Assembly: GCA_019456225.1 (NCBI GenBank)
Contig: VRUI01000030.1
Coordinates: 1 to 52,183, forward strand
Length of the DNA: 52,183 nucleotides
DNA from: Planctomycetota bacterium
GTDB taxonomy: Bacteria > Planctomycetota > Phycisphaerae > Sedimentisphaerales > Anaerohalosphaeraceae
Direction: 5' to 3'
Part shown: positions 19,073 to 47,427 of the stretch, piece by piece
Layout: the number at the start of each line of letters is the position of its first letter
Numbering within the stretch: position 1 is the first letter of the stretch
Notes under the pieces: generated by a model
What the model saw: only the letters and a program-made list of their open reading frames with translations
The model's database searches: none
Told to the model about the DNA's origin: nothing
Made by a program: the position numbers and the translations under genes

Positions 19073-22000
19073 CTATTTTCTTGCCGTAACCATCCAGTGA
19101 GGCATTGGCGGCGGCAGCGGAGTGACTTTCATATCTGTGAAACCTGCCTGGCTTAACCAGTCTTTGACCTGCGAATCTGAAAAGACCCAGCCGTTATCGG
19201 TCGTCAGGGCCATGTTAACTGCGAATAACGCACTGAACTTTGGCTGTGTGTGGGTGTGGTCGGTCATCATATCCATGACATTGACCGTTCCGCCATCATT
19301 AAGAGAGTCGTAGGCTTTTTTAAACAGTTTGCAAATGCTTTCGGTTTGAGCATCAGCTAAAAGCTTATTTCGTTTTTCGATTAAGCTGGTGTTTAAGGTA
19401 TCCGATGCTTTTATTTCCAGGTCGATGACGTTGCTCTTGAGCATGCCGCTGAAATATTTGCCTGTAAATGCATTATGACTGACAAAGGATATGTGTAAAC
19501 GATATTGGTCCGGTTTGAGTTTGTTTACATCATACAAATCTGCAATATCGATGGTGAAAGAGGTTTCCTTGCCGGGTTCAATTTTAAACGGTTTTTCAAC
19601 CAGTCCTTTCTGCGGAGCTAGTTGAGGTGCTTTTAAGACTGGCATTCCGTCTTTTGTTTTGAGCCTGATACAAAAGGTTCCAATGTAACCTTTACGCGAT
19701 CCGTATTGATAACTGCCGGCCTCTATGGCCTTTGAACTGACGTTCTTAAACACAACATTGATTGGGGCATTGTCACTGTCATATCTGGCATCTTTAAATT
19801 TCGATATTTCCATTTTCAGCGGCGAAGCGAGATCGCTAACCTGGAAAACAATATCTGGCAATGGGGCTCTACCGCTGATTCGTAACGGTGAACAACGCAA
19901 TTGGCCGGTATCCTGTTTATACCAGAATTCTCCAATAAGTCCGGGGATTGTCGTTTTGTCACCCCATTTATTGAGTTGCTCGTTATATGAGTACAGCATA
20001 CACTTGTTGTTCAATCCGCTGTATATCGAACCATCACCGGTGCCCAAAACAAATACTCCCGTCTGACCATTGGACCATTTAACAGGAGCAACTGGACAAT
20101 GCTTTACTCTGCCGAATAAATCAAAATTAGAACCTTCGATAATCTCTGACATTTTGACATTTCCATTGTCAACGATAAGTACATATATCGAAGGAACTAT
20201 CCGGTCATGTTTCTTATTCCAAAAAGAATTTTGCAGCAAATAAAAAGTCTTGCCATCGGTGCCAGGCCAGGACATGTAGTTAATCCTTAGTCTTTTATCA
20301 TCACGACTAATGGAATATTCGAATTTTCTACCTTTTTCAGTTGAAACATCTTTAGGAAATTGCCTCCAATTTACAATATCTTTGGACCTGCTAAGAACAG
20401 CATCAAATCCCCCTGTCTCTTGCAGCAATTTTACAATTGTATTTTTTATTTCAGCATCTGCGGAAACGACAACACTTTTGAACTCTTTCCTGGACGCACC
20501 CCTCTCTTCGGGGGTTTTGAATTCGGCAGTCCAATGTCTTAGAGATTCTGCATTACACTTTGAATACGCAGAAACTAAGGAATCCAAAGTGACTGACCCT
20601 TTAATTTTCCCATGGGTCGTTTCGTTGAACGCATCCAAACGAATCATGTCTTTGAGATTGAAGAGGAAATTTCTTTTCTCTTTTAATGATATCCTCTCAG
20701 AATACAGCAGTTCCAATAATTTATTTAAATCTTTTTCTTTTTCGAGAACACCAAGGTGATAATTCCCTGCAGCAAGGGGAGTTATCGATCTTTCGCCCAT
20801 AGCAGGACCAAACTTTTGAACTTCCATTTCAAAAGCTTCTGAATAAGACAGGCTCGCATCAATCGTACATCCGGCATCGGCCAGTATGTCAGCTTTATTG
20901 AGATACATCCCCAAGACTTTTCTTACAGAACTTTCATAATCATCTTCAGTTTTCTCAGGCAAACCTGCCATCTCTTTTTCAATTTTTCCAGAAATCGCTT
21001 TTAGTTTTGCGGCTGTTTCTTTAGGCAGGGTTGGCTGTTTAGAAGTTTTACCAAATTTGCTGTATATTCCACTTTCGACAACTCGTCCAAGCAGATCCAC
21101 CAGGTCATATCGCACTTTCTTAGGAATATCCCTGTCACTTAACACAGACCTTAATCCTGAGCCATCTACAAAAAGTATTCGTGAATTTAATGATGACAAT
21201 TTCTTGCTGAAAGCCGCTTCCTTGTACCCAAACGATCTCGCGACCAACCCCAATGTTTCAGCAGGTTTTCCTGAAAGGGAATTTAATGTATCTAAAGCTT
21301 TTATTTTATTTTTTATAATTGTGCTTACCCGCTGAGCTTTTTGGTGAATTTGTTCTTTGTACTTTTGATATCTATTCCCGATTTCTAAATCTACTACAGG
21401 TGCATCTTTAGAAATGCCGGCGATCATTTTCATATCTTCCAGTGACGTACCCAGAAGTTGCAGTACATCGAGTGCTGTATTTCTGACACGATAGTCATGC
21501 CACTTTAAGTACACCGGTTTTAGTTTATATGAATATTTACGCGGAGCGACAAAGTGTTTCAAGTGTGTTCTTACAAAGGTGAGGACACGGTCCCGGTTTT
21601 TAATCAATACATTGGGAGATTGTATGCTCATAAAAGACAAAAGTGTATAGGCTCGATCAACGGACATCATCCAGGTATCCTCGCCATGATAAAAATAATC
21701 CTGATGCCCCTTTTGCTTGCCAGCTCGATATCCACGTTTCGATTCATGGAGATAGTTCAGTGTTTCCTCGGGATTAACGGTCGCCAGATATAGAAGCCTC
21801 ATATCCCCCGAAAGACCTGACTGACCTTTTTTTTCTATTTCATAAATGCGTGGATCAAATGTGGATTGAACCATAGCCATCAAGTCGAGGATATAAACAG
21901 GTTCTTCAACAAGCCAGGGATTTGTCTCGTGTGAAACATCAGAAGTAGGCAGATTTGCCTTGGCACACTCCCTCAAGTAGAGAGAAATTAGCCTATCCTT

Positions 22001-25000
22001 AATTTCTGGATTGTCATAGCGAAGAACGTATGAGCCATGAAAACGCATATTTTCAGGCACATCATTAGCTACCATCAGTATCGCCCTGGCCTTGTCCTCT
22101 AATTTATCACTCTCAATAGCTTTGTCCAACTTTTCAAGCAGCGGATTCAATTCATTTTGAGGCAATGTTGCCATATCAGGAAAAAAGGACACGAAGCCTT
22201 TAATTTTCTTCAGTTCATCAATTACCCGCTGAATTTCTGTTTTTACGGCCTTGTGGGTTTCCTTTGTCAGGGCTTTTTTCAGTTCGCCGATTGCGGATTT
22301 TGCTTTTAGATACTCAAGAGCCGTCACAGCATTTTCCCGTGAACCTTTAAATGAAAGCTGCTTTACGAAATATGCGACCGGGTCTTTTGCTTCGTCGGAT
22401 AAAGGTTCTATATTGCCGGTTTTAATTGTCAAAGAATAGGTTTGAGATGACATAAACAAGCTGTGGTGCACTCGGCCTTCTTTGTTTCTGTGTGTCATCA
22501 ATGCATCGCTCTTGAAGATCAGTTTTTTGTCGTCCCAGCGATCAATATGCACCCATCCGTGATACGGATCGATCGATTGCAGAACCTTATATTTCTTATT
22601 CTGCAGCAGCACGGTCAGGTCTATGACCTGAAGGAACGTATGGCCTTCTCCTTGAGATCGCACAGCAAGATAGCGGCCGTCAGGAGAGGCCTTGATCTCA
22701 TCGACATGCATCATTGCCGTGGTAATTAAAGGGATAAGTACTTCTTTGGTCTGATCATTTTTATGCAATAACCACTTTGGCGAAAAAGTCTGATGCGGGT
22801 CTTTGTCGGTAATAACTCGCAGTTTCCAATCAACTTGTTTTTTATTCCCATCAACCCAAACATACTTAATGGTCTCTTTTGCGACCTCAGGATAAATGTA
22901 GGAAGGCATTAGCGATTCTGGAATATCCAGCAAAACAAACTCTTCCGGTTTTAGCAGGTCGATCCGCCCTTCGATGTATGCCACGGCAAACAGGTTGTGT
23001 TTATATACCAGCGACGTATCTATAATCAGCGAATGGTTCCAAAGATCGTAGTCATCTTCTTTCGGAGGCGGGTTTAGGTATATCGCCCTTAAATGTTCTT
23101 TTGTTATCTTTTCACCGCGATAATTCTCGATCCCGATAAGTTCGCTTAGTTTCTGCGGCACCTGCGGCGGACCTTCCTTTTTGGGATTCTCTTTATCACG
23201 GGCGGCCCTGTATTTGTGCACTGCGCCGAGAACTTTCCTAAACCGCCTCAGAGCTTGTATGCGCTCATCGGCCAGCAATTTAAGATATTCATCCGAAGGC
23301 GGCCCAAGCTTTTTACCCGGGTACGTCTTTTCCCACCATTTAGTCCACAGTTCTTTTTGCTTCTTTATGTTCAAAAGCAGCTTTTTGTCGTGAACTACTT
23401 TCTCGCCCGTCAATTTTTCCAGTGCAGGATTAACAACACCCCTCACCGATTCGTTTAAAGTACCCAGAATGTTGATCAATACCGGAGCATAGTCTGTTGT
23501 CCCGCATTCAACTAGCCCGTCGATCAGGGAACCGCCGTAACAGCAAACAAGCCCGGTAGTCTTTATCAAGGCTGTCAAATGATCCGGCATTTCCAGGGGT
23601 CCAAGAAACTGAGCAAGATGGTGATTGTCATGCTGACTTTTCACGCAGAACAGTTTAAGCAATATCGCGTCTGCAAGTTTCTCACGAATTTCAGATTGCC
23701 CGCGAGTCTTCCATACAAACCACGCACAAGCCAGCCGTTGCCCGTCACGACCATTATAATCATCGTTGTCCCGGTCGATAACTTTTTCGCCAAGAACATA
23801 CGGGATCAACTGCTGCGGGGACATATCGAAAAATGTTTTGTCGGATGGCGGATATTTGGGCCTGTACCTGGGCCAGTTATAATCAGACTGTACCCCTTTA
23901 CCCTTTACTTTTCCCGATCCGTTATTTTTTTCGCTGAGATTCTTAGACAAATCAGACACCTTTGTCTCATTCGTACCAGGTGACTTAATAGTCTCTGAAA
24001 CTTTTATCTCTTTTGCGTCAATATTCTCGTAGACATGGAGCACCTCAGTGTACTCCTGAGAGGGGACGGTGATGATTTTTATTATCTTCTTCCATGTTTC
24101 CGGGGTTGCCCACTTTTTATCTAAGGAGATAAAATGCTTACGGGGATTTTTGCCTTTAGGGGTTTGGTTACTGAATGCGACCTGAAACATTTCACGAAGT
24201 TCCGGGTCATCATCAAACATCGAAAGAATTGTCTCTCGTGTATTCTCCGCATATTCCGGCAGTACCCTCTTAGTAATGCCTATAGCCGAAGCCAAAGAAC
24301 TAAAAACCATCTCATGCGGTGATTTCCCCACAGGATACTTCTTTAGACTTCTGTGCAAACGATTGAAATACCTCTGTTTCAGCAGGTCAGCTTCGGGCCA
24401 ACAGTCTTTATTGTCATAAGCAATAACAAAAGACAGCGACCTTTTTTCATTGTCAATTGTCACTTCACCTTTCAAATGATTGTTGAACCGTTCCGGATCG
24501 CCATGATGGTTATGCTGCATGAACCATTCCTCGCTGCGTTCTTCATAGGCAGCCTTGACCTTGCGAATATGCTCGGCCCTGACCTTTGAATACGGCTTTG
24601 ACGGATATATCTTTCTGTCTGTTTTGTTGTGCGGATTGTAAATCGACATTTCCGCTGAATGAGTAGGCGCAAAATGAACCTGACCGTTTCGATAGACTAA
24701 AGTATCGTCATCGAAAATTTCTTTTGCATTTCCAAACAGAGCTGTCTGAAACTTCAAATCCTTCGTCAATACAAATGTGTAGCCGGCAGAAGGATTGGAG
24801 TGGATTCCCAAATATATATAATCATTAACATAATCTATTCTTTCAATTTGGTTCGGAATGAAATACCTTACAGCCTTAATTGTCGTAAAGTAAATCTCAC
24901 CTTGTCTCCAAATATTTTGTTTTTTATCAAGTGTCTTTACGTAAACTCTGCCCAGTTGATGCGAAACATTGCTTTTTAGATAAAATGCGATGCAGAATAC

Positions 25001-27016
25001 TTCCGGCTTATTCAATACATGATAACCTATGACAACCTCGTCGAGCAAGGATATGCCAGAGTCCTTAAAGTCAATGCTTTTGTCATTTAACACATCTCTT
25101 AACGTTTTATCAGTATTTTCAGGCTTTCCAGGATTTATACCTTTTATTCTGCTCTTGATTTCTTTGACTGCAATGTTATATCCGTAAACCTGTCTAACCT
25201 GCGGATATTTATTTCTGATGGTATTTAAACGAGCCAATCTTGTTTGCAGTGATAATTCATCCGCATTCTTAATGCAACCGGCTATACTCGCAGAAGCATT
25301 GCGAAGATTTGAAATAATCGTGCTTTTATGCAGACCACTTTTTTCGGTCATGGTCGGATCAATACAAAGTGCCAGTATTTCATCATAGATTTTTTCTGCC
25401 TTATCCACTTTCCCCTGCTCTGCGTAAAGGTCTATATAACTCTTATCCAACTTCATAGCCAATTCATAATCGTCTTTTTTCAGGTGCCGTTTCATGCCAA
25501 GCAATATTCCCTCAGCCTTTGATGCATCCCTCTTCAGCAAACGATCAAATGCAAGAAAATTCATATTTTTCCACGATATACTATTTACTTCAGCAATCCT
25601 TGCCGCTAACAGATAGTATTCAAGGGCTTTATCGTTATCCTGACCATCCCAGTGTGACTCATAGATAGCTCCCAAATTATATATCACATCGATAATACGC
25701 TGATCATGATGATATTTCTCTATGAATTTATCATAAGCATCCACCAACGCTGGCACGCCGATTTTCGCAGCGTCAAGATCCCAAAGAGCATTATATTCAA
25801 CAGAAAAGTCCTCTGGGCCTTTTGCTTCTTCCTTTGTATCCGGTTTCTCGGATGTCTGATTCGTCAAACCAAGCGTCGCAGGTATAGCAATAGCTGCAAG
25901 CAGCAGTACCGCTATCAGTCCTGCTTGCCATGCTGGGGTGTTTTGGCAGTGAGGTTTGAGGCCTAGTATGTGGCGCACCCTGGACAGGGTTGGTTTTGTG
26001 TTTTGGCCTAGTCCTGCTGCCAGGAAAGGCTTTTTTTTGTTTACTCTGTCAGTGGTTACTTTCTGCAGTGTTTTTGCGTAGGTCAGTCGCTCGCCGGTTA
26101 GTTTTACTGCCATCGCATCGCAGCATAATTCTCGTTCGGATCGCAGGCGGTTAGAGAGCCACCATACTGCCGGATGATAAAACAGGAATGTTTCGGTTAG
26201 CCGCTGGGCGAGGTTTACCCATAGATCGAATCTGCGTATATGGGCCAGTTCGTGGGCTATAACGGCCTCGAGCATGTCGGGCGACATTTGCGTTATCATT
26301 GCGGCAGGAAGTAAAACGATAGGTTTCAGGTAACCGACGGCCATTGCCTGCATGGCTTTTGGTGAAATAAATACACGCGAAAAACCACGCATACCGAGGC
26401 GGTCACTAAGCGAATCAACACGGGCTGACAGACCATCCGGGAGCGGTTTTAGATCGCGTCGCCAGCGGTGTATGCCGATGAAACCGGCAAGGAGCCGCAC
26501 GCTAAGGACTATAACACCGAGCATCCAGATCACCGGCACCCATGGCATGGAGATATCAAGCATTGTCGAGAATCTATCGGCCAGCGGTACAGATTCTTCC
26601 TTTACCGGCTGGGGAGTGAAAGTAACCGGAGTCGAAATTACTGTCTCCGGCGAAATCTCTGTTTCCGACGAAATTTCTGTTTCCGGCGAAACTTCTACCG
26701 GAGTCGCAGCTTCAGTTGGGGGCAATGCCGTATAAGACGGGATCGCAATATTTTCGGCCGGCGCCGCCTCTATTACAGCATCGAATTGCGAAACCGCGGA
26801 AATGTCGATCATAGTGAAAGTTACTACCGGACATACGACCATTGCGGCAAAGGCCAGCAGATATGCGGCGTATCGGCCGTTGCCGTGCTTTATCCTGAAT
26901 GCCCTGACGACGGCAACTGCAAGAAATGCAACGGCAAGGCCCTGCCAGAGAAAATGCAGCAACGTAAGGGCAAACCGCCGGCAGATGGGCTGAGATAGAA
27001 ATTCAACTACTGACAT
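19073..27016 (-). CDS. giant BlaR1-like M56 metallopeptidase/sensor with methyltransferase-like C-terminal tail
   Basis: 2647 residues. The N-terminal 390 form an M56 (BlaR1/MecR1) unit: membrane segments at about 15-40, 50-72, 156-180 and 363-385, the zinc motif HELAH at 255-259, and the downstream RSERELCCDAMAVK that holds the third ligand. A short ETEIS/ETVIS repeat lies at about 112-127. The remaining 2250 residues should face outside the cytoplasm. They hold tetratricopeptide-like helices (about 400-600) and long unrecognised alpha/beta stretches. The last 95 residues (AYDSLNDGGTVNVMDMM ... DWLSQAGFTDMKV) look like the C-terminus of a SAM O-methyltransferase without its SAM-binding half. 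BlaR1 proteins are about 600 residues. The ATG overlaps the BlaI stop (TAATG) and has a strong GAGGGG site. Confidence 0.8.
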   Translation of the reverse strand: MSVVEFLSQPICRRFALTLLHFLWQGLAVAFLAVAVVRAFRIKHGNGRYAAYLLAFAAMVVCPVVTFTMIDISAVSQFDAVIEAAPAENIAIPSYTALPPTEAATPVEVSPETEISSETEISPETVISTPVTFTPQPVKEESVPLADRFSTMLDISMPWVPVIWMLGVIVLSVRLLAGFIGIHRWRRDLKPLPDGLSARVDSLSDRLGMRGFSRVFISPKAMQAMAVGYLKPIVLLPAAMITQMSPDMLEAVIAHELAHIRRFDLWVNLAQRLTETFLFYHPAVWWLSNRLRSERELCCDAMAVKLTGERLTYAKTLQKVTTDRVNKKKPFLAAGLGQNTKPTLSRVRHILGLKPHCQNTPAWQAGLIAVLLLAAIAIPATLGLTNQTSEKPDTKEEAKGPEDFSVEYNALWDLDAAKIGVPALVDAYDKFIEKYHHDQRIIDVIYNLGAIYESHWDGQDNDKALEYYLLAARIAEVNSISWKNMNFLAFDRLLKRDASKAEGILLGMKRHLKKDDYELAMKLDKSYIDLYAEQGKVDKAEKIYDEILALCIDPTMTEKSGLHKSTIISNLRNASASIAGCIKNADELSLQTRLARLNTIRNKYPQVRQVYGYNIAVKEIKSRIKGINPGKPENTDKTLRDVLNDKSIDFKDSGISLLDEVVIGYHVLNKPEVFCIAFYLKSNVSHQLGRVYVKTLDKKQNIWRQGEIYFTTIKAVRYFIPNQIERIDYVNDYIYLGIHSNPSAGYTFVLTKDLKFQTALFGNAKEIFDDDTLVYRNGQVHFAPTHSAEMSIYNPHNKTDRKIYPSKPYSKVRAEHIRKVKAAYEERSEEWFMQHNHHGDPERFNNHLKGEVTIDNEKRSLSFVIAYDNKDCWPEADLLKQRYFNRLHRSLKKYPVGKSPHEMVFSSLASAIGITKRVLPEYAENTRETILSMFDDDPELREMFQVAFSNQTPKGKNPRKHFISLDKKWATPETWKKIIKIITVPSQEYTEVLHVYENIDAKEIKVSETIKSPGTNETKVSDLSKNLSEKNNGSGKVKGKGVQSDYNWPRYRPKYPPSDKTFFDMSPQQLIPYVLGEKVIDRDNDDYNGRDGQRLACAWFVWKTRGQSEIREKLADAILLKLFCVKSQHDNHHLAQFLGPLEMPDHLTALIKTTGLVCCYGGSLIDGLVECGTTDYAPVLINILGTLNESVRGVVNPALEKLTGEKVVHDKKLLLNIKKQKELWTKWWEKTYPGKKLGPPSDEYLKLLADERIQALRRFRKVLGAVHKYRAARDKENPKKEGPPQVPQKLSELIGIENYRGEKITKEHLRAIYLNPPPKEDDYDLWNHSLIIDTSLVYKHNLFAVAYIEGRIDLLKPEEFVLLDIPESLMPSYIYPEVAKETIKYVWVDGNKKQVDWKLRVITDKDPHQTFSPKWLLHKNDQTKEVLIPLITTAMMHVDEIKASPDGRYLAVRSQGEGHTFLQVIDLTVLLQNKKYKVLQSIDPYHGWVHIDRWDDKKLIFKSDALMTHRNKEGRVHHSLFMSSQTYSLTIKTGNIEPLSDEAKDPVAYFVKQLSFKGSRENAVTALEYLKAKSAIGELKKALTKETHKAVKTEIQRVIDELKKIKGFVSFFPDMATLPQNELNPLLEKLDKAIESDKLEDKARAILMVANDVPENMRFHGSYVLRYDNPEIKDRLISLYLRECAKANLPTSDVSHETNPWLVEEPVYILDLMAMVQSTFDPRIYEIEKKGQSGLSGDMRLLYLATVNPEETLNYLHESKRGYRAGKQKGHQDYFYHGEDTWMMSVDRAYTLLSFMSIQSPNVLIKNRDRVLTFVRTHLKHFVAPRKYSYKLKPVYLKWHDYRVRNTALDVLQLLGTSLEDMKMIAGISKDAPVVDLEIGNRYQKYKEQIHQKAQRVSTIIKNKIKALDTLNSLSGKPAETLGLVARSFGYKEAAFSKKLSSLNSRILFVDGSGLRSVLSDRDIPKKVRYDLVDLLGRVVESGIYSKFGKTSKQPTLPKETAAKLKAISGKIEKEMAGLPEKTEDDYESSVRKVLGMYLNKADILADAGCTIDASLSYSEAFEMEVQKFGPAMGERSITPLAAGNYHLGVLEKEKDLNKLLELLYSERISLKEKRNFLFNLKDMIRLDAFNETTHGKIKGSVTLDSLVSAYSKCNAESLRHWTAEFKTPEERGASRKEFKSVVVSADAEIKNTIVKLLQETGGFDAVLSRSKDIVNWRQFPKDVSTEKGRKFEYSISRDDKRLRINYMSWPGTDGKTFYLLQNSFWNKKHDRIVPSIYVLIVDNGNVKMSEIIEGSNFDLFGRVKHCPVAPVKWSNGQTGVFVLGTGDGSIYSGLNNKCMLYSYNEQLNKWGDKTTIPGLIGEFWYKQDTGQLRCSPLRISGRAPLPDIVFQVSDLASPLKMEISKFKDARYDSDNAPINVVFKNVSSKAIEAGSYQYGSRKGYIGTFCIRLKTKDGMPVLKAPQLAPQKGLVEKPFKIEPGKETSFTIDIADLYDVNKLKPDQYRLHISFVSHNAFTGKYFSGMLKSNVIDLEIKASDTLNTSLIEKRNKLLADAQTESICKLFKKAYDSLNDGGTVNVMDMMTDHTHTQPKFSALFAVNMALTTDNGWVFSDSQVKDWLSQAGFTDMKVTPLPPPMPHWMVTARK

Positions 27017-39997: not shown

Positions 39998-42900
39998 TCA
40001 ATCCTCTATGATGACTCTGAAACCTACGTTATAGACCTTCTGGTATGACTCGTATGGGAATCTGACACTGCTTCCCGCTGTTTTTGGACGGTCATTCCAG
40101 CTTCCGCCTCGGGCGACCTTTTTGATCGTCAAGTCAGCGTCTTTCGAATCATCCTGCTTATAAGGATACGGCAAGTAGCTCGACCGTGTCCATTCCGAGA
40201 CGTTTCCAACCATGTCATACAAACCCCACGGATTCGCCTCGTATTGTTTAACGTAATCGACAACGATCCATTTGTCCGTAAAGCGGTCGTCTCGCAGCGG
40301 GTAAAGATAATCGGCCGGGTAGTCGCGGCGTTTGTGTACCTTGCTTCCGCCGTCCCATCCGACGTACATTCTGCGTCGTCCGGCGTCGGCGAGGTTTGCG
40401 AATTTGGAGAAATCCGTATCGCTGTCGCCATAGAAGAACTGTTCTTTTGAACCGGCGCGAGCGGCCCATTCCCATTGTGCTTCGGTAGGCAGGGTAACTT
40501 TCTTGCCCGTCTTTTTCGAGAGCCACTTGCAAAACGCCATCGCCTGCTGCCATGAAATTCGCGCAACCGGCTGATCTTTATGGTTAGCGATATAACCCGG
40601 GACCGCATGGTCCTTACCGTTTTCGTCAAGATAACGCGTATCGTGTTCAGCGTCGAATGCCGCGTACTGTTTGTTGGTAACTTCCGTTTCACCCATCCAG
40701 TAGCCCTTCGTCACATTTACAACAGACCTAGGCATCTCATCGGCGTAACCAGACTGCGAGCCCATAACAAACTGCCCTGCCCGTATCCGCTTAAAGGTGA
40801 AATTAACATCATTACCAAGTGGGAAAGTGAGCTTATTTTTGAAAATATCTTGTTGTTTGTCTACACCAGTCGCGGTCAACCCATCCGGGGCAACCTTCTT
40901 TTCCTTCGGAGGCATTACCGGCGTAATATCATTCTTGATCAACTTGATTGTCGCGCGGTGTTCTTCTTCCGGATTGTCAGTTAGCCCGGCATAAAGAATT
41001 GCCAGGTCAAGACGCCTTTTTTCAAACTTCTTATTGTTCCACATTCCGCGGTGCGGTGCGTTAAGATCGATCCAGGTGTAGATCCTGTCCCAGTCTTCGG
41101 CGGAAAGCTCAACATTATGGTGGCCCTTTTTGAACATCTGGACCAGCGGACTTGTCGAGACGTGCCACTCCATCGGACCATACATATCAAGATCACTTTC
41201 CGGTCCGGGTTTGCGGGTAAAGGCTACAAGATTGAGATACGAACGATCCTTACGCCAGTTCTGCATCGGATCGGCCTTGACAAATGATATGCCGCCCTTC
41301 TTAGCGGTATTGTTGTGGCAGCCGACGCACTTCTTATCAAGTATCGGCTGGATCTCTGTAGGAAACGCAAACGGCCTTACCGGTCCGCGCCAGGTCTTGA
41401 TCCTTCTCGGCGATCTTCTGCCGGCGAGAGTCATCTTAACCGGCGAAGCCTCATTCTGGTTTTCATGGCAGCCGTTGCATGACAGGTTTTCACCGCCCTG
41501 ACCGACCATCCAGCTCCGCATAAGAGCGAGAGCGGCCCCGTCTTCATCAAGCGGCTGGATCGCGATAGGCGTATTTGACGGAGCGACAAAACTAAACGAA
41601 CCGTCCTTCTCGACGTCAACTGTACCAAGAATTCGTTTGATATCCCAGCTGGATTCAAGACCGACCGACTCATGCCCGCCGCTTTTCAAATAACCGTAAT
41701 GGTATGCAATCACCCGAAGCTTTTTAACCTTGCCTTTGGGTATGTCTTTAAGCCCCGGACCGCCGTAAATATCAGTACAGAAGATAGTCGTCTCATCCGA
41801 ATCAGTCGTACGGTCAACAAGAACAGCAGGTGTCTTTTGAACTGTGAGCGGGATAGGCTCGAATATGCTGTATTTAGCGTCTTCGTAGACTACCGTAATA
41901 TTGTCAAAGGTGTCAACAAGAGCGAGCACCCACTTTTTACCTTTTTTGAGAGAGACCAGGAAGTAATTCTCCGACAGCGGATAAGGCGTGCCGAATGTAT
42001 ATTTCTGACCGCCGCCCTGGTTGTCATAAACATTACCAACAACGTCACGGCCAAATCCAGGAATCTCCTGAACGCAACCGGTCTTGTCGGCAGGAAAAAC
42101 TTTCGGATGAATGTTAATCTGCGTATTTTCTTTCCCCCATGTCTTTTCTTTGGGGTTATGACGCAACGGATATTTGCGGCCAAGTGCAGGGTCAATGATA
42201 AGCAGACGCCCTGTTTCACTTTTAGCATGATGACCGCTGACAATACCGACGACCTTCGTAGAATGGTTCGGTATCGGACGCGTCCAGCAGTATGCCGTCG
42301 GAAAATAAGAACCGCTTCCCCAATACTCGCTCTGGCTGGTTCCGTCGGGATTCATATGGAAAAGATACCTCGAATAATAATGCGGAGTATCCGTATATTC
42401 CCATCGAAGATACATCACCTTGCCGTTAGCAAGCACACGAGGATGCCAGTCACTGTCCTGTTCATAAGTAAGCTGTCTTACCTTGCCGGAATTTGCATCA
42501 ACCTTATAAATGTTTGCCATAGGCCTACCGCCGTTTTCACAAGGCAGTCCCTGGATACCGGCAGTAGAGCAAACGAGAATCTTCCCATCTTCCGGCAGAT
42601 AGCAGCCGTCAAACCACTGAACATCTTGCTGGTCGCTGGGAGTAAGTTCCTTAAGATTTTGACCGTCAGTATCGATCTCAAGCACTGCCCACATGCCGTT
42701 GCTTCCCACACCGGAAAACATCAGTTTGTCGCCAGAGAAATGAACGTCCATATGTTTTATAACAGAAGTGTCCCGATGGCGATAGATCGGTTTAACCTTG
42801 ACCTCACCTCGCAAATTCGACAGTTCAGCGATATCATTATCCCAGCCGGTCCGCTTGATCGTATCACTCGTGTAAGAGTTCAGACTGCGGTTAGCTTCCT

Positions 42901-43219
42901 TCATGCGGCGAATAACAACCAGTTTGTCAAAGTCCAGCAGAGGGTTGGCAAGCGAAGCGTCCTTGATAAGTGCGTCAAGTTCGGTCTGCGCTGCAGGGCT
43001 GATCTTACCGCTTATCTTAGCGGCGATCTTGTCAAGACGGCCAAGAAATTCCTTACCCGGGTAATTGTCGCCGTTGTTCTTGATAAGATCGGCAATCATC
43101 CGACGAGCAGAATCGGGGGTATTGACAGGAACATCTCCGTTATTAACCGCAAATGCCGGGCCAACAACGAAAATCGTGACAACCGCAAAAAACACAAAAG
43201 GCTTTACTTTGCAAAACAC
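39998..43219 (-). CDS. HzsA-related propeller protein with two heme c motifs and a C-terminal FGE/SUMF1-like domain
   Basis: About 1073 residues. The start was set at a GTG (43219) with GGGAG five bases upstream; it directly opens a signal peptide (FCKVKPFVFFAVVTIFVVG, ending PAFA). After a helical lead, about residues 120-550 read as a six-bladed propeller resembling hydrazine synthase alpha subunits. Two CxxCH heme motifs follow: CNGCH (about 582) and CVGCH (about 631). From about 800 an FGE/SUMF1-like domain ends the protein (RIRAGQFVMGSQSGY, NPWGLYDMVGNVSEWT, VARGGSWNDRP). The Cys pair of true formylglycine enzymes is missing there, so that domain is probably structural or binding. It is a periplasmic redox protein. 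No anammox partner genes are seen and hydrazine synthesis is not implied. Confidence 0.8.
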   Translation of the reverse strand: MFCKVKPFVFFAVVTIFVVGPAFAVNNGDVPVNTPDSARRMIADLIKNNGDNYPGKEFLGRLDKIAAKISGKISPAAQTELDALIKDASLANPLLDFDKLVVIRRMKEANRSLNSYTSDTIKRTGWDNDIAELSNLRGEVKVKPIYRHRDTSVIKHMDVHFSGDKLMFSGVGSNGMWAVLEIDTDGQNLKELTPSDQQDVQWFDGCYLPEDGKILVCSTAGIQGLPCENGGRPMANIYKVDANSGKVRQLTYEQDSDWHPRVLANGKVMYLRWEYTDTPHYYSRYLFHMNPDGTSQSEYWGSGSYFPTAYCWTRPIPNHSTKVVGIVSGHHAKSETGRLLIIDPALGRKYPLRHNPKEKTWGKENTQINIHPKVFPADKTGCVQEIPGFGRDVVGNVYDNQGGGQKYTFGTPYPLSENYFLVSLKKGKKWVLALVDTFDNITVVYEDAKYSIFEPIPLTVQKTPAVLVDRTTDSDETTIFCTDIYGGPGLKDIPKGKVKKLRVIAYHYGYLKSGGHESVGLESSWDIKRILGTVDVEKDGSFSFVAPSNTPIAIQPLDEDGAALALMRSWMVGQGGENLSCNGCHENQNEASPVKMTLAGRRSPRRIKTWRGPVRPFAFPTEIQPILDKKCVGCHNNTAKKGGISFVKADPMQNWRKDRSYLNLVAFTRKPGPESDLDMYGPMEWHVSTSPLVQMFKKGHHNVELSAEDWDRIYTWIDLNAPHRGMWNNKKFEKRRLDLAILYAGLTDNPEEEHRATIKLIKNDITPVMPPKEKKVAPDGLTATGVDKQQDIFKNKLTFPLGNDVNFTFKRIRAGQFVMGSQSGYADEMPRSVVNVTKGYWMGETEVTNKQYAAFDAEHDTRYLDENGKDHAVPGYIANHKDQPVARISWQQAMAFCKWLSKKTGKKVTLPTEAQWEWAARAGSKEQFFYGDSDTDFSKFANLADAGRRRMYVGWDGGSKVHKRRDYPADYLYPLRDDRFTDKWIVVDYVKQYEANPWGLYDMVGNVSEWTRSSYLPYPYKQDDSKDADLTIKKVARGGSWNDRPKTAGSSVRFPYESYQKVYNVGFRVIIED

Positions 43220-43379
43220 AAAAACTCCCTTTATCAAAAACAATTTCAAAATTAAAACGAAGATATACCCTAAAACGTCTGCATTTCGCGTTTTATTTCT
43301 GGATTTCATTGATTTTACACGGAAATTTGCTTGCCGTCAAGTAAATTTAATACGTGAATGGATAATTTGGAGGTTTATA

Positions 43380-45527: not shown

Positions 45528-45731
45528 AACAACACCTTTCTTTAGAAGCATTCAGACTACAAAAGGATCGTACAGTGTCAAGAAAATAAAGGTGTATCTA
45601 CCAACATTGACCGTAAAGCTGTCATTTATAGCAAAAAACTCATTAGTCTGATAATAACAGACAGGCAGGCCGCCGAACAGCTCCGTCCGAAAACCTTTTT
45701 TTAGTAAATTTGGTCTTTTCCTCAAAATAAT

Positions 45732-45777
45732 TTGCCTGATACTGATTTAATACGTATGTTTTAACTGTAAAACGAGG
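45732..45777 (+). promoter_or_regulatory. promoter of paralogue 1, nearly identical to that of paralogue 2
   Basis: TTGCCT (45732-45737), 17 bases, TATGTT (45755-45760), then TTAACTGTAAAACGAGG. It aligns without gaps through the -10 box with 46401-46447 upstream of the second paralogue. It lies 55 bases before the start at 45816. Confidence 0.65.
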
Positions 45778-45815
45778 TAACATGAAAAGAAACTATTTAA
45801 ACGGCAGGAGCAAAA

Positions 45816-46304
45816 ATGAATAAGATAAGTGATACCCAGTACACCCCGTCTCAGGGCGGCCCGATGACGCCAGCTGAAAGCATGAAAATGGATATGGAAA
45901 GAGCCAACAATATAAACTCGGCATTTCAGAGTATGCGTGATATGACAGCCGATGAATTCGCAAGCTCAAATTCAATTATACCAATTGGAGGAGGTTATTC
46001 CATTGACCTGGTCAATGGAACTATTGTGTTTGATTTTTCCAGGCTCAACGAAGAAAGGGACGCCCGGCAATCAACAAATTACTTCATAGAGACACTAAGA
46101 AATAGCGGCAAAAAGATGTTCTCAACTTTTCAGGAACTAATGTCCAACACCGAAAAAACGCGCGACAAAAAACTCGAAATGGATCTTTCCACCAATAAAC
46201 AAAAAACCGAGACATTACTTAAAAAGATCATGAAAGAAGCTTCAATGTTTTCGAACGCATACAAAAGCATGGATTCCAGCAAAGTAATGTCGCTTCTGTG
46301 CTAA
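45816..46304 (+). CDS. unrecognised protein family, paralogue 1 (one C-terminal module)
   Basis: 162 residues, hydrophilic, with no signal peptide or membrane segment. AGGAG lies five bases before the ATG. A short N-terminus (MNKISDTQYTPS) is followed by a glycine-led core GGGYSIDLVNGTIVFDFSRL (about residues 58-77) and QSTNYFIETL. A C-terminal helical module ends MFSNAYKSMDSSKVMSLLC. The same core and C-terminal module occur in the next gene, so the two are paralogues. Met- and Ser-rich composition and the lack of export signals could suit a cytoplasmic, structural or non-classically secreted protein. No known family was recognised and no function is claimed. Confidence 0.75.
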   Translation: MNKISDTQYTPSQGGPMTPAESMKMDMERANNINSAFQSMRDMTADEFASSNSIIPIGGGYSIDLVNGTIVFDFSRLNEERDARQSTNYFIETLRNSGKKMFSTFQELMSNTEKTRDKKLEMDLSTNKQKTETLLKKIMKEASMFSNAYKSMDSSKVMSLLC

Positions 46305-46400
46305 CAAATTCATTAGTCCTGTAATGTCTGGCAAATCAGTTATCCATCGCCGTTTTTTCGGGACTTATCGGCAGCTAAAAAATATTTTTTTGCGGGATAT

Positions 46401-46447
46401 TTGGCTGATGAAAATTTATTTCGTATATTTTAATTGTATAAAGCGGG
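46401..46447 (+). promoter_or_regulatory. promoter of paralogue 2
   Basis: TTGGCT (46401-46406), 17 bases, TATATT (46424-46429), then TTAATTGTATAAAGCGGGG. It shares the -35, spacing, -10 and downstream bases with 45732-45777. It lies 57 bases before the TTG start. Confidence 0.65.
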
Positions 46448-46485
46448 GGGCTTGAAATTTAATATGCAGTGTGTTTGGAGAAAGA

Positions 46486-47427
46486 TTGAACGAAATAAGT
46501 AATACAATGAGTTTGCAGTTTCCGGCTTCGCCGCTTTCATCCGGCAACGATACAAGGACCGACAAGGCAAAGGCCGATAGTATCCCGATGCATGAACATG
46601 CAGATAAGGCGATTGAGGATTTTCTGCATGGCGAGACTCGTTCAGATCAGTCGGCAGCGATGACCCCCATGGAGGTAATAACATCACAAGCCGCTTCCAA
46701 TCCAGCCGCTTCAGAAGTGAGCAAAAAGTTCTTAACGATGGAAAACATCATCAATGACTTCCTGTCAAAACCAGTCTCCGAGGATAATCCCGAGACAGTC
46801 GGAGGAGCACTTTCCAACATTGCTGAAAACATACAGGAGTTATTAAAGGACATACAGAATGGAAGTTGCGGACCTTCAAACGGACATCCAACCGTATCGC
46901 TTGGAGGCGGCTTTGTTATTGACATTATCTGCGGGGAAATTAAGTTTGATATGTCCAGGCTAATTGAGTACATGAACTCACAGGAGTCAACAAATGGCTT
47001 CAAGGAAATGCTGGAAGATAACAACAATAACAGCTCGATCCCGGATATAAAAGATATAATCAATGAAGCCGCAAAAGGATCGACAGAATTTAAAGCCCAA
47101 AAAGAAATTAAAACCGAAAATCAAGGACCTGATTCAGTACTAAAAGACATAATGAAGTCTTCAATGCTATCAAAGACATATAAAGATTCAGAATCATCGA
47201 ATGACCCGATGGAACTGTCTGAAGACAGCAACAGTTCGGTCAAGAATTTCCGAAACATATTAGAAGAAGCCGGAAAAGGTCCGACAGAAATAACACTCCA
47301 ACAAAATATTGAATCCGAAAAAAAACAAGCAGAAACAGCACTGAAGGAACTCATAAAAGACTCTTCAGTGCTATCAGGGGCATACATGGAAATGGATTCC
47401 GACAAAGTACTCGGACTATTATCTTAA
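46486..47427 (+). CDS. unrecognised protein family, paralogue 2 (two C-terminal modules)
   Basis: 313 residues. The start is taken as TTG at 46486: GGAG lies five bases before it, and the translated start (M)NEISNT matches paralogue 1's MNKISDT. An insert of about 90 residues follows. The shared core GGGFVIDIICGEIKFDMSRL and QESTNGFKEML comes next, then two tandem copies of the C-terminal module (about 58 residues each, from 47047 and 47248), the last ending VLSGAYMEMDSDKVLGLLS. It is acidic and Ser/Asn-rich, without signal peptide or membrane segment. No family was recognised. The gene lies 181 bases after paralogue 1 with its own promoter. Confidence 0.75.
   Translation: MNEISNTMSLQFPASPLSSGNDTRTDKAKADSIPMHEHADKAIEDFLHGETRSDQSAAMTPMEVITSQAASNPAASEVSKKFLTMENIINDFLSKPVSEDNPETVGGALSNIAENIQELLKDIQNGSCGPSNGHPTVSLGGGFVIDIICGEIKFDMSRLIEYMNSQESTNGFKEMLEDNNNNSSIPDIKDIINEAAKGSTEFKAQKEIKTENQGPDSVLKDIMKSSMLSKTYKDSESSNDPMELSEDSNSSVKNFRNILEEAGKGPTEITLQQNIESEKKQAETALKELIKDSSVLSGAYMEMDSDKVLGLLS

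Follow-up and report, generated by a model that had tools for sequence, protein, structure and literature searches.

The window, a stretch of DNA of 52,183 nucleotides, carries two genes for orphan proteins, P1 and P2, in tandem on the plus strand (Table 1). Both open reading frames are present where a first-pass annotation of this DNA had placed them. For P2 the TTG at 46486 was preferred as start codon over a GTG at 46471, because the sequence MNEISNT then matches MNKISDT of P1. Two other large reading frames of the window, both on the minus strand, may be mentioned here. The one at 39998-43309 encodes a large protein with a hydrazine-synthase-alpha-like middle domain and a C-terminal sulfatase-modifying-factor domain. 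Gene content such as this suggests that the DNA probably comes from a planctomycete. The other, at 19073-27016, is a single open reading frame of 2647 codons; inspection by eye suggests a BlaR1/MecR1-like membrane peptidase region at its start and several unrelated-looking regions after it.

Table 1. Features of the three paralogous genes and of their 5′ regions. Positions are those of the window, except for P3, which lies on contig C51 and is numbered as in L014.
Feature	Position	Strand	Remarks
P1 upstream box TAGTCTGATAAT	45644..45655	+	111 nt before promoter block
TTGCCT, candidate -35 of P1	45732..45737	+	absent at P3
P1 promoter block TATGTTTTAACTGTA	45755..45769	+	exact match, as at two other sites genome-wide
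AGGAG Shine-Dalgarno-like site			directly 5′ of P1 start
P1	45816..46304	+	162 aa orphan protein, ATG start at 45816
P1 core GGGYSIDLVNGTIVFDFSRL	45987..46046	+	beta strands predicted
P1 C-terminal helical module	46107..46301	+	last residues SMFSNAYKSMDSSKVMSLLC
P2 upstream box TAGTCCTGTAAT	46314..46325	+	110 nt before promoter block
TTGGCT, candidate -35 of P2	46401..46406	+
P2 promoter block TATATTTTAATTGTA	46424..46438	+
P2	46486..47427	+	orphan protein of 313 aa, paralogous to P1, TTG start
P2 core GGGFVIDIICGEIKFDMSRL	46903..46962	+
P2 helical module, copy 1	47056..47241	+	internal repeat
P2 helical module, copy 2	47242..47424	+	last residues SVLSGAYMEMDSDKVLGLLS
P3 upstream box TAGTCCTGTAAA			109 nt before promoter block
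P3 promoter block	C51, L014:10285-10299	minus
P3	L014:9450-10232	minus	260 aa, TTG start

A family of three paralogous proteins

The kinship of P1 and P2 was confirmed by a whole-genome search (E=3e-13) and by Smith-Waterman alignment, in which the pair scored 156 and the best of 400 shuffles 62. As the first-pass annotation had claimed, the two proteins have a GGGxxIDxxxGxIxFDxSRL core in common and the C-terminal helical module is real in both. Two additions to that annotation can be made. The helical module is present in P2 twice in tandem (score 87 versus a shuffle maximum of 48). The whole-genome search also revealed a third paralogue, P3, on another contig and unlinked to P1 and P2, which makes the family larger than first reported. 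P3 has kept most of the core (IGNGFSIDIVEGAIVFD) as well as the C-terminus (SSMLSMSYGEMDAEFVMKLIT), and its Smith-Waterman scores of 118 with P1 and 121 with P2 compare with shuffle maxima of 76 and 70, respectively. As the three copies are only about 28-34% identical, the duplication is old. Short open reading frames of 13 codons, which probably occur there by chance, were noticed at positions 45782-45823 of the window (P1) and in L014 just upstream of 10232 on the minus strand (P3).

All three proteins are laid out alike. The N-terminus is polar and loose, the core is a short beta-hairpin, and the C-terminal part consists of a long tail that is helical for the most part. The core follows the GGGxxIDxxxGxIxFDxSRL pattern and the end of the tail the pattern SxLSxxYxxMDxxxVxxLL, or a close variant of these. 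Neither a strongly hydrophobic stretch of 19 residues nor a tryptophan was found in P1, P2 or P3, and their low hydropathy would fit soluble proteins that are either cytosolic or exported by a non-classical route. In the AF2 model of P1, which was built from the three sequences, residues 54-72 form a hairpin region and residues 74-151 a long helix, after which comes a second, short helix at the C-terminus; the pLDDT is near 90 halfway along the long helix, yet the pTM is 0.28. The model of P3 was unusable (mean pLDDT 37.5, pTM 0.18). Foldseek, run with the poor P1 model, returned no fold match at E<=0.001.

The shared control region

The three homologous genes occupy two unlinked sites and each is preceded by its own 5′ unit, so that a single control architecture is shared by all of them. 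Its order is an upstream box, 109-111 nt, a promoter block TATRTTTTAAYTGTA, 61-67 nt counted from the start of the block to the start codon (61 nt at P1, 62 nt at P2 and 67 nt at P3), and the gene. Exact copies of TATRTTTTAAYTGTA occur three times in the genome of 4.45 Mb, every time 5′ of a family gene. None of the five sites with one mismatch lies upstream of a family member, and at two mismatches the count equals background (61 sites versus 80 for the reversed control). The block is thus a feature beyond chance, unlike the matches to sigma-70 hexamers described below. The DNA upstream of it is otherwise as dissimilar among the copies as expected by chance (22-30% identity over -130 to -31). 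The block and the box therefore seem to have been kept by selection and are unlikely to be the mere trace of a recent duplication. The earlier proposal that each gene was duplicated along with its promoter is supported, and now extends to the third, unlinked copy.

The upstream box, at a distance of about 110 nt from the block, was not part of the first-pass annotation and is the weaker of the two elements. It has the form TAGTCCTGTAA, but TAGTCTGATAAT at P1. It is the best word common to the three copies outside the block, and its register is held to within 1 nt. When it was compared, at an identical register, with 1,500 random triplets of real 5′ regions from this genome, the box was matched or beaten in 3, 1 and none of the 1,500 for word lengths of 10, 12 and 14, respectively, frequencies that are somewhat optimistic since the box had been picked by eye before testing. 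The box is a short sequence, and the genome contains two more exact copies of it, both lacking a block at the family distance; one is located in 23S rRNA-like sequence and the other before a pseudopilin-like gene. The latter copy of TAGTCCTGTAA is separated by 166 nt from the start of its gene, which encodes a PilX-like pseudopilin (L069; G000:C135 near 55897) and has no TATRTTTTAAYTGTA block. This distance is close to the 172-176 nt of the family, possibly by chance.

An ordinary promoter had been proposed for P1 and P2 in the form TTGSCT-17-TATRTT. Such sequences are indeed present at both genes, as TTGCCT-17-TATGTT at 45732-45760 and as TTGGCT-17-TATATT at 46401-46429. However, sigma-70 promoter-like sites in this region do not exceed chance (two found versus 5.7 expected from shuffles), and at P3 neither TTGSCT nor any other -35-like hexamer was found at a spacing of 17 +-1 nt. 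A -35 and a -10 hexamer spaced by 16-18 nt are accordingly found at P1 and P2 only and not at every copy. The absence of TTGSCT at P3 indicates that the conserved signal consists of the block and the -110 box and is not a plain sigma-70 promoter. The high expression that had been suggested for the two genes finds no support either, given the poor -35 hexamers and the low third-position GC, which is 0.43-0.51 in the family versus 0.55-0.64 in four nearby genes.

A putative co-expressed scaffold and its alternatives

With moderate confidence P1, P2 and P3 are regarded as a lineage-restricted family of co-expressed paralogues that would act as a cytosolic helical scaffold or adaptor under a shared regulator. 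The TATRTTTTAAYTGTA block would be the core promoter, comprising the -10 and the start region, and the box, being at a constant upstream distance, might bind a dedicated activator or a looping regulator, so that one signal would turn on all three genes together. Their helices could allow the proteins to assemble into homo- or hetero-oligomers. The C-terminal motif, which besides the core is the main conserved part, would dock all three to one common partner, and P2, having two modules, may be the bridging member. A scaffold or adaptor is the most likely mechanism; because the fold predictions are of low confidence, the helical scaffold and the C-terminal docking role are no more than inferences.

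An unlikely alternative is that the proteins are substrates of flagellar type III export, i.e. secreted accessory or filament proteins. The genome does encode flagellin, FlgK/FlgL, FlhA and FlhB, and loose polar N-termini without a signal peptide, helical C-termini and the lack of a strongly hydrophobic segment would suit such substrates. However, the family genes and the flagellar loci are unlinked, no block site within two mismatches occurs in C72:72000-128000, and upstream of flagellin there is neither a block within three mismatches nor a box within one. Since neither element occurs at those flagellar loci that were examined, membership in a flagellar regulon was rejected. The C-terminal Y-x-x-x-D (YKSMD, YMEMD and YGEMD), together with a sub-threshold WXG100 score of P3 (E 0.06), could instead point to substrates of type VII (WXG100/ESX) secretion, an idea that is hardly credible. 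None of the proteins has a tryptophan and hence a WXG motif, and the single match to an FtsK/SpoIIIE domain in the genome is in an ordinary FtsK-sized open reading frame, which means that an ATPase of the EssC/EccC type is missing. Type VII secretion was excluded on the absence of this ATPase from a genome that is 96% complete. A separate observation concerns the flagellar genes themselves. Directly 3′ of flhB lies a second, truncated FlhA-like gene (L029:13917-15515; G000:C72:85916-87514) in which FHIPEP is represented by just its membrane part at the N-terminus (model positions 1-243). The C-terminal region of this gene product resembles, by eye, a degenerate ATPase of the MinD/CpsD type. 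The full-length flhA is found elsewhere (L031:8493-10634).

It is improbable that the genes belonged to a mobile element, inserted as a cassette of gene plus promoter, of which they would be passengers or remnants. Their third-position GC is below that of the neighbours, and in those relatives whose flanks were read, several of them short or ended by a contig edge, no family member was found 5′ of the copies of the ABC-F gene that lies downstream in the window. On the other hand, the neighbours are ordinary chromosomal genes, the phage, plasmid and viral collections held no similar protein, and the divergence of the copies indicates an old duplication. Moreover, the two loci lack extended DNA similarity; apart from 24 nt over the block region, no match reaches a low E-value. 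Equally improbable is a role of the 5′ elements in the transcript, as leader peptide, attenuator or regulatory RNA, in place of a promoter or operator. The block lies just 61-67 nt before the start codon, and at P1 and P3 the start codon is overlapped by one of the short reading frames, which would be compatible with such a role. Against it stand the absence of an Rfam match in the window region and a folding of the leaders that is no better than that of shuffles (z 0.2 to 0.6). Short reading frames of this kind precede 19 of 95 genes of the genome, and none was found for P2; given this chance rate of about 20%, leader peptides were dropped.

Returning to the co-expressed scaffold family, a stronger version of it must be called doubtful, namely that P1, P2 and P3 constitute a new protein family whose members assemble and dock to a common partner, and a three-gene regulon in which an undescribed regulator or sigma factor would read the -110 box and the unusual TATRTTTTAAYTGTA core. 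The first-pass annotation had spoken of an undescribed system. This goes too far for three proteins whose genes share a control region, as neither a partner gene nor a conserved neighbourhood was found for the family. If the control region is real, its regulator and the inducing conditions would point to a function that homology cannot explain. Orphan paralogue families are common, and the general interest of this one is therefore moderate.

Comparison with known families

No convincing match to a known family was obtained in Pfam, NCBIfam, PHROGs or the PDB, in line with the earlier description of the family as unlike any known one. No credible relative was found in phages, plasmids or viral contigs, nor in about 85,000 species genomes (one genome per species); these collection scans used exact degenerate peptide patterns derived from the three sequences, which diverged relatives could escape. 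Nor was a relative found in several hundred genomes from the same order, class and phylum, among which no second genome of the genus appeared. Some matches in these related genomes, with weak scores between 1e-3 and 0.1, covered just parts of the profile and were not taken as relatives.

Among all library matches of the family, the strongest was that of P3 residues 55-238 to LeoA (PADLOC PDLC03839; E=5e-6), and the same residues scored below the cut-off with the LeoA/dynamin-like helical domain of Pfam (PF18709; E 0.02). The match spans the hairpin core. LeoA and the dynamin-like proteins have an N-terminal GTPase domain, whereas Pfam detected none in P1, P2 or P3, which are 162-313 aa long. 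P1 and P2 did not match LeoA, and a PDB search with P3 returned no LeoA chain. An identity with LeoA was rejected on these grounds, and the score of P3 probably reflects a generic similarity of helices. The order of helix, beta-hairpin and helix is reminiscent of prefoldin alpha (PDB 2zdi). This candidate was rejected too, since the E-value of 0.04 obtained with the family profile is not significant and the poor P1 model gave no Foldseek match.

P1, P2 and P3 are ORFans, in that no homologue outside the lineage was detectable in the collections searched. Unknown gene families from uncultivated taxa have been catalogued (PMC10849945). The proteins resemble ORFan families of this type in being small and soluble and in having no significant relatives in curated libraries or in the approximately 85,000 species genomes. 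They differ from them in that one genome holds three members and in that a control region of two elements marks these as one regulon.
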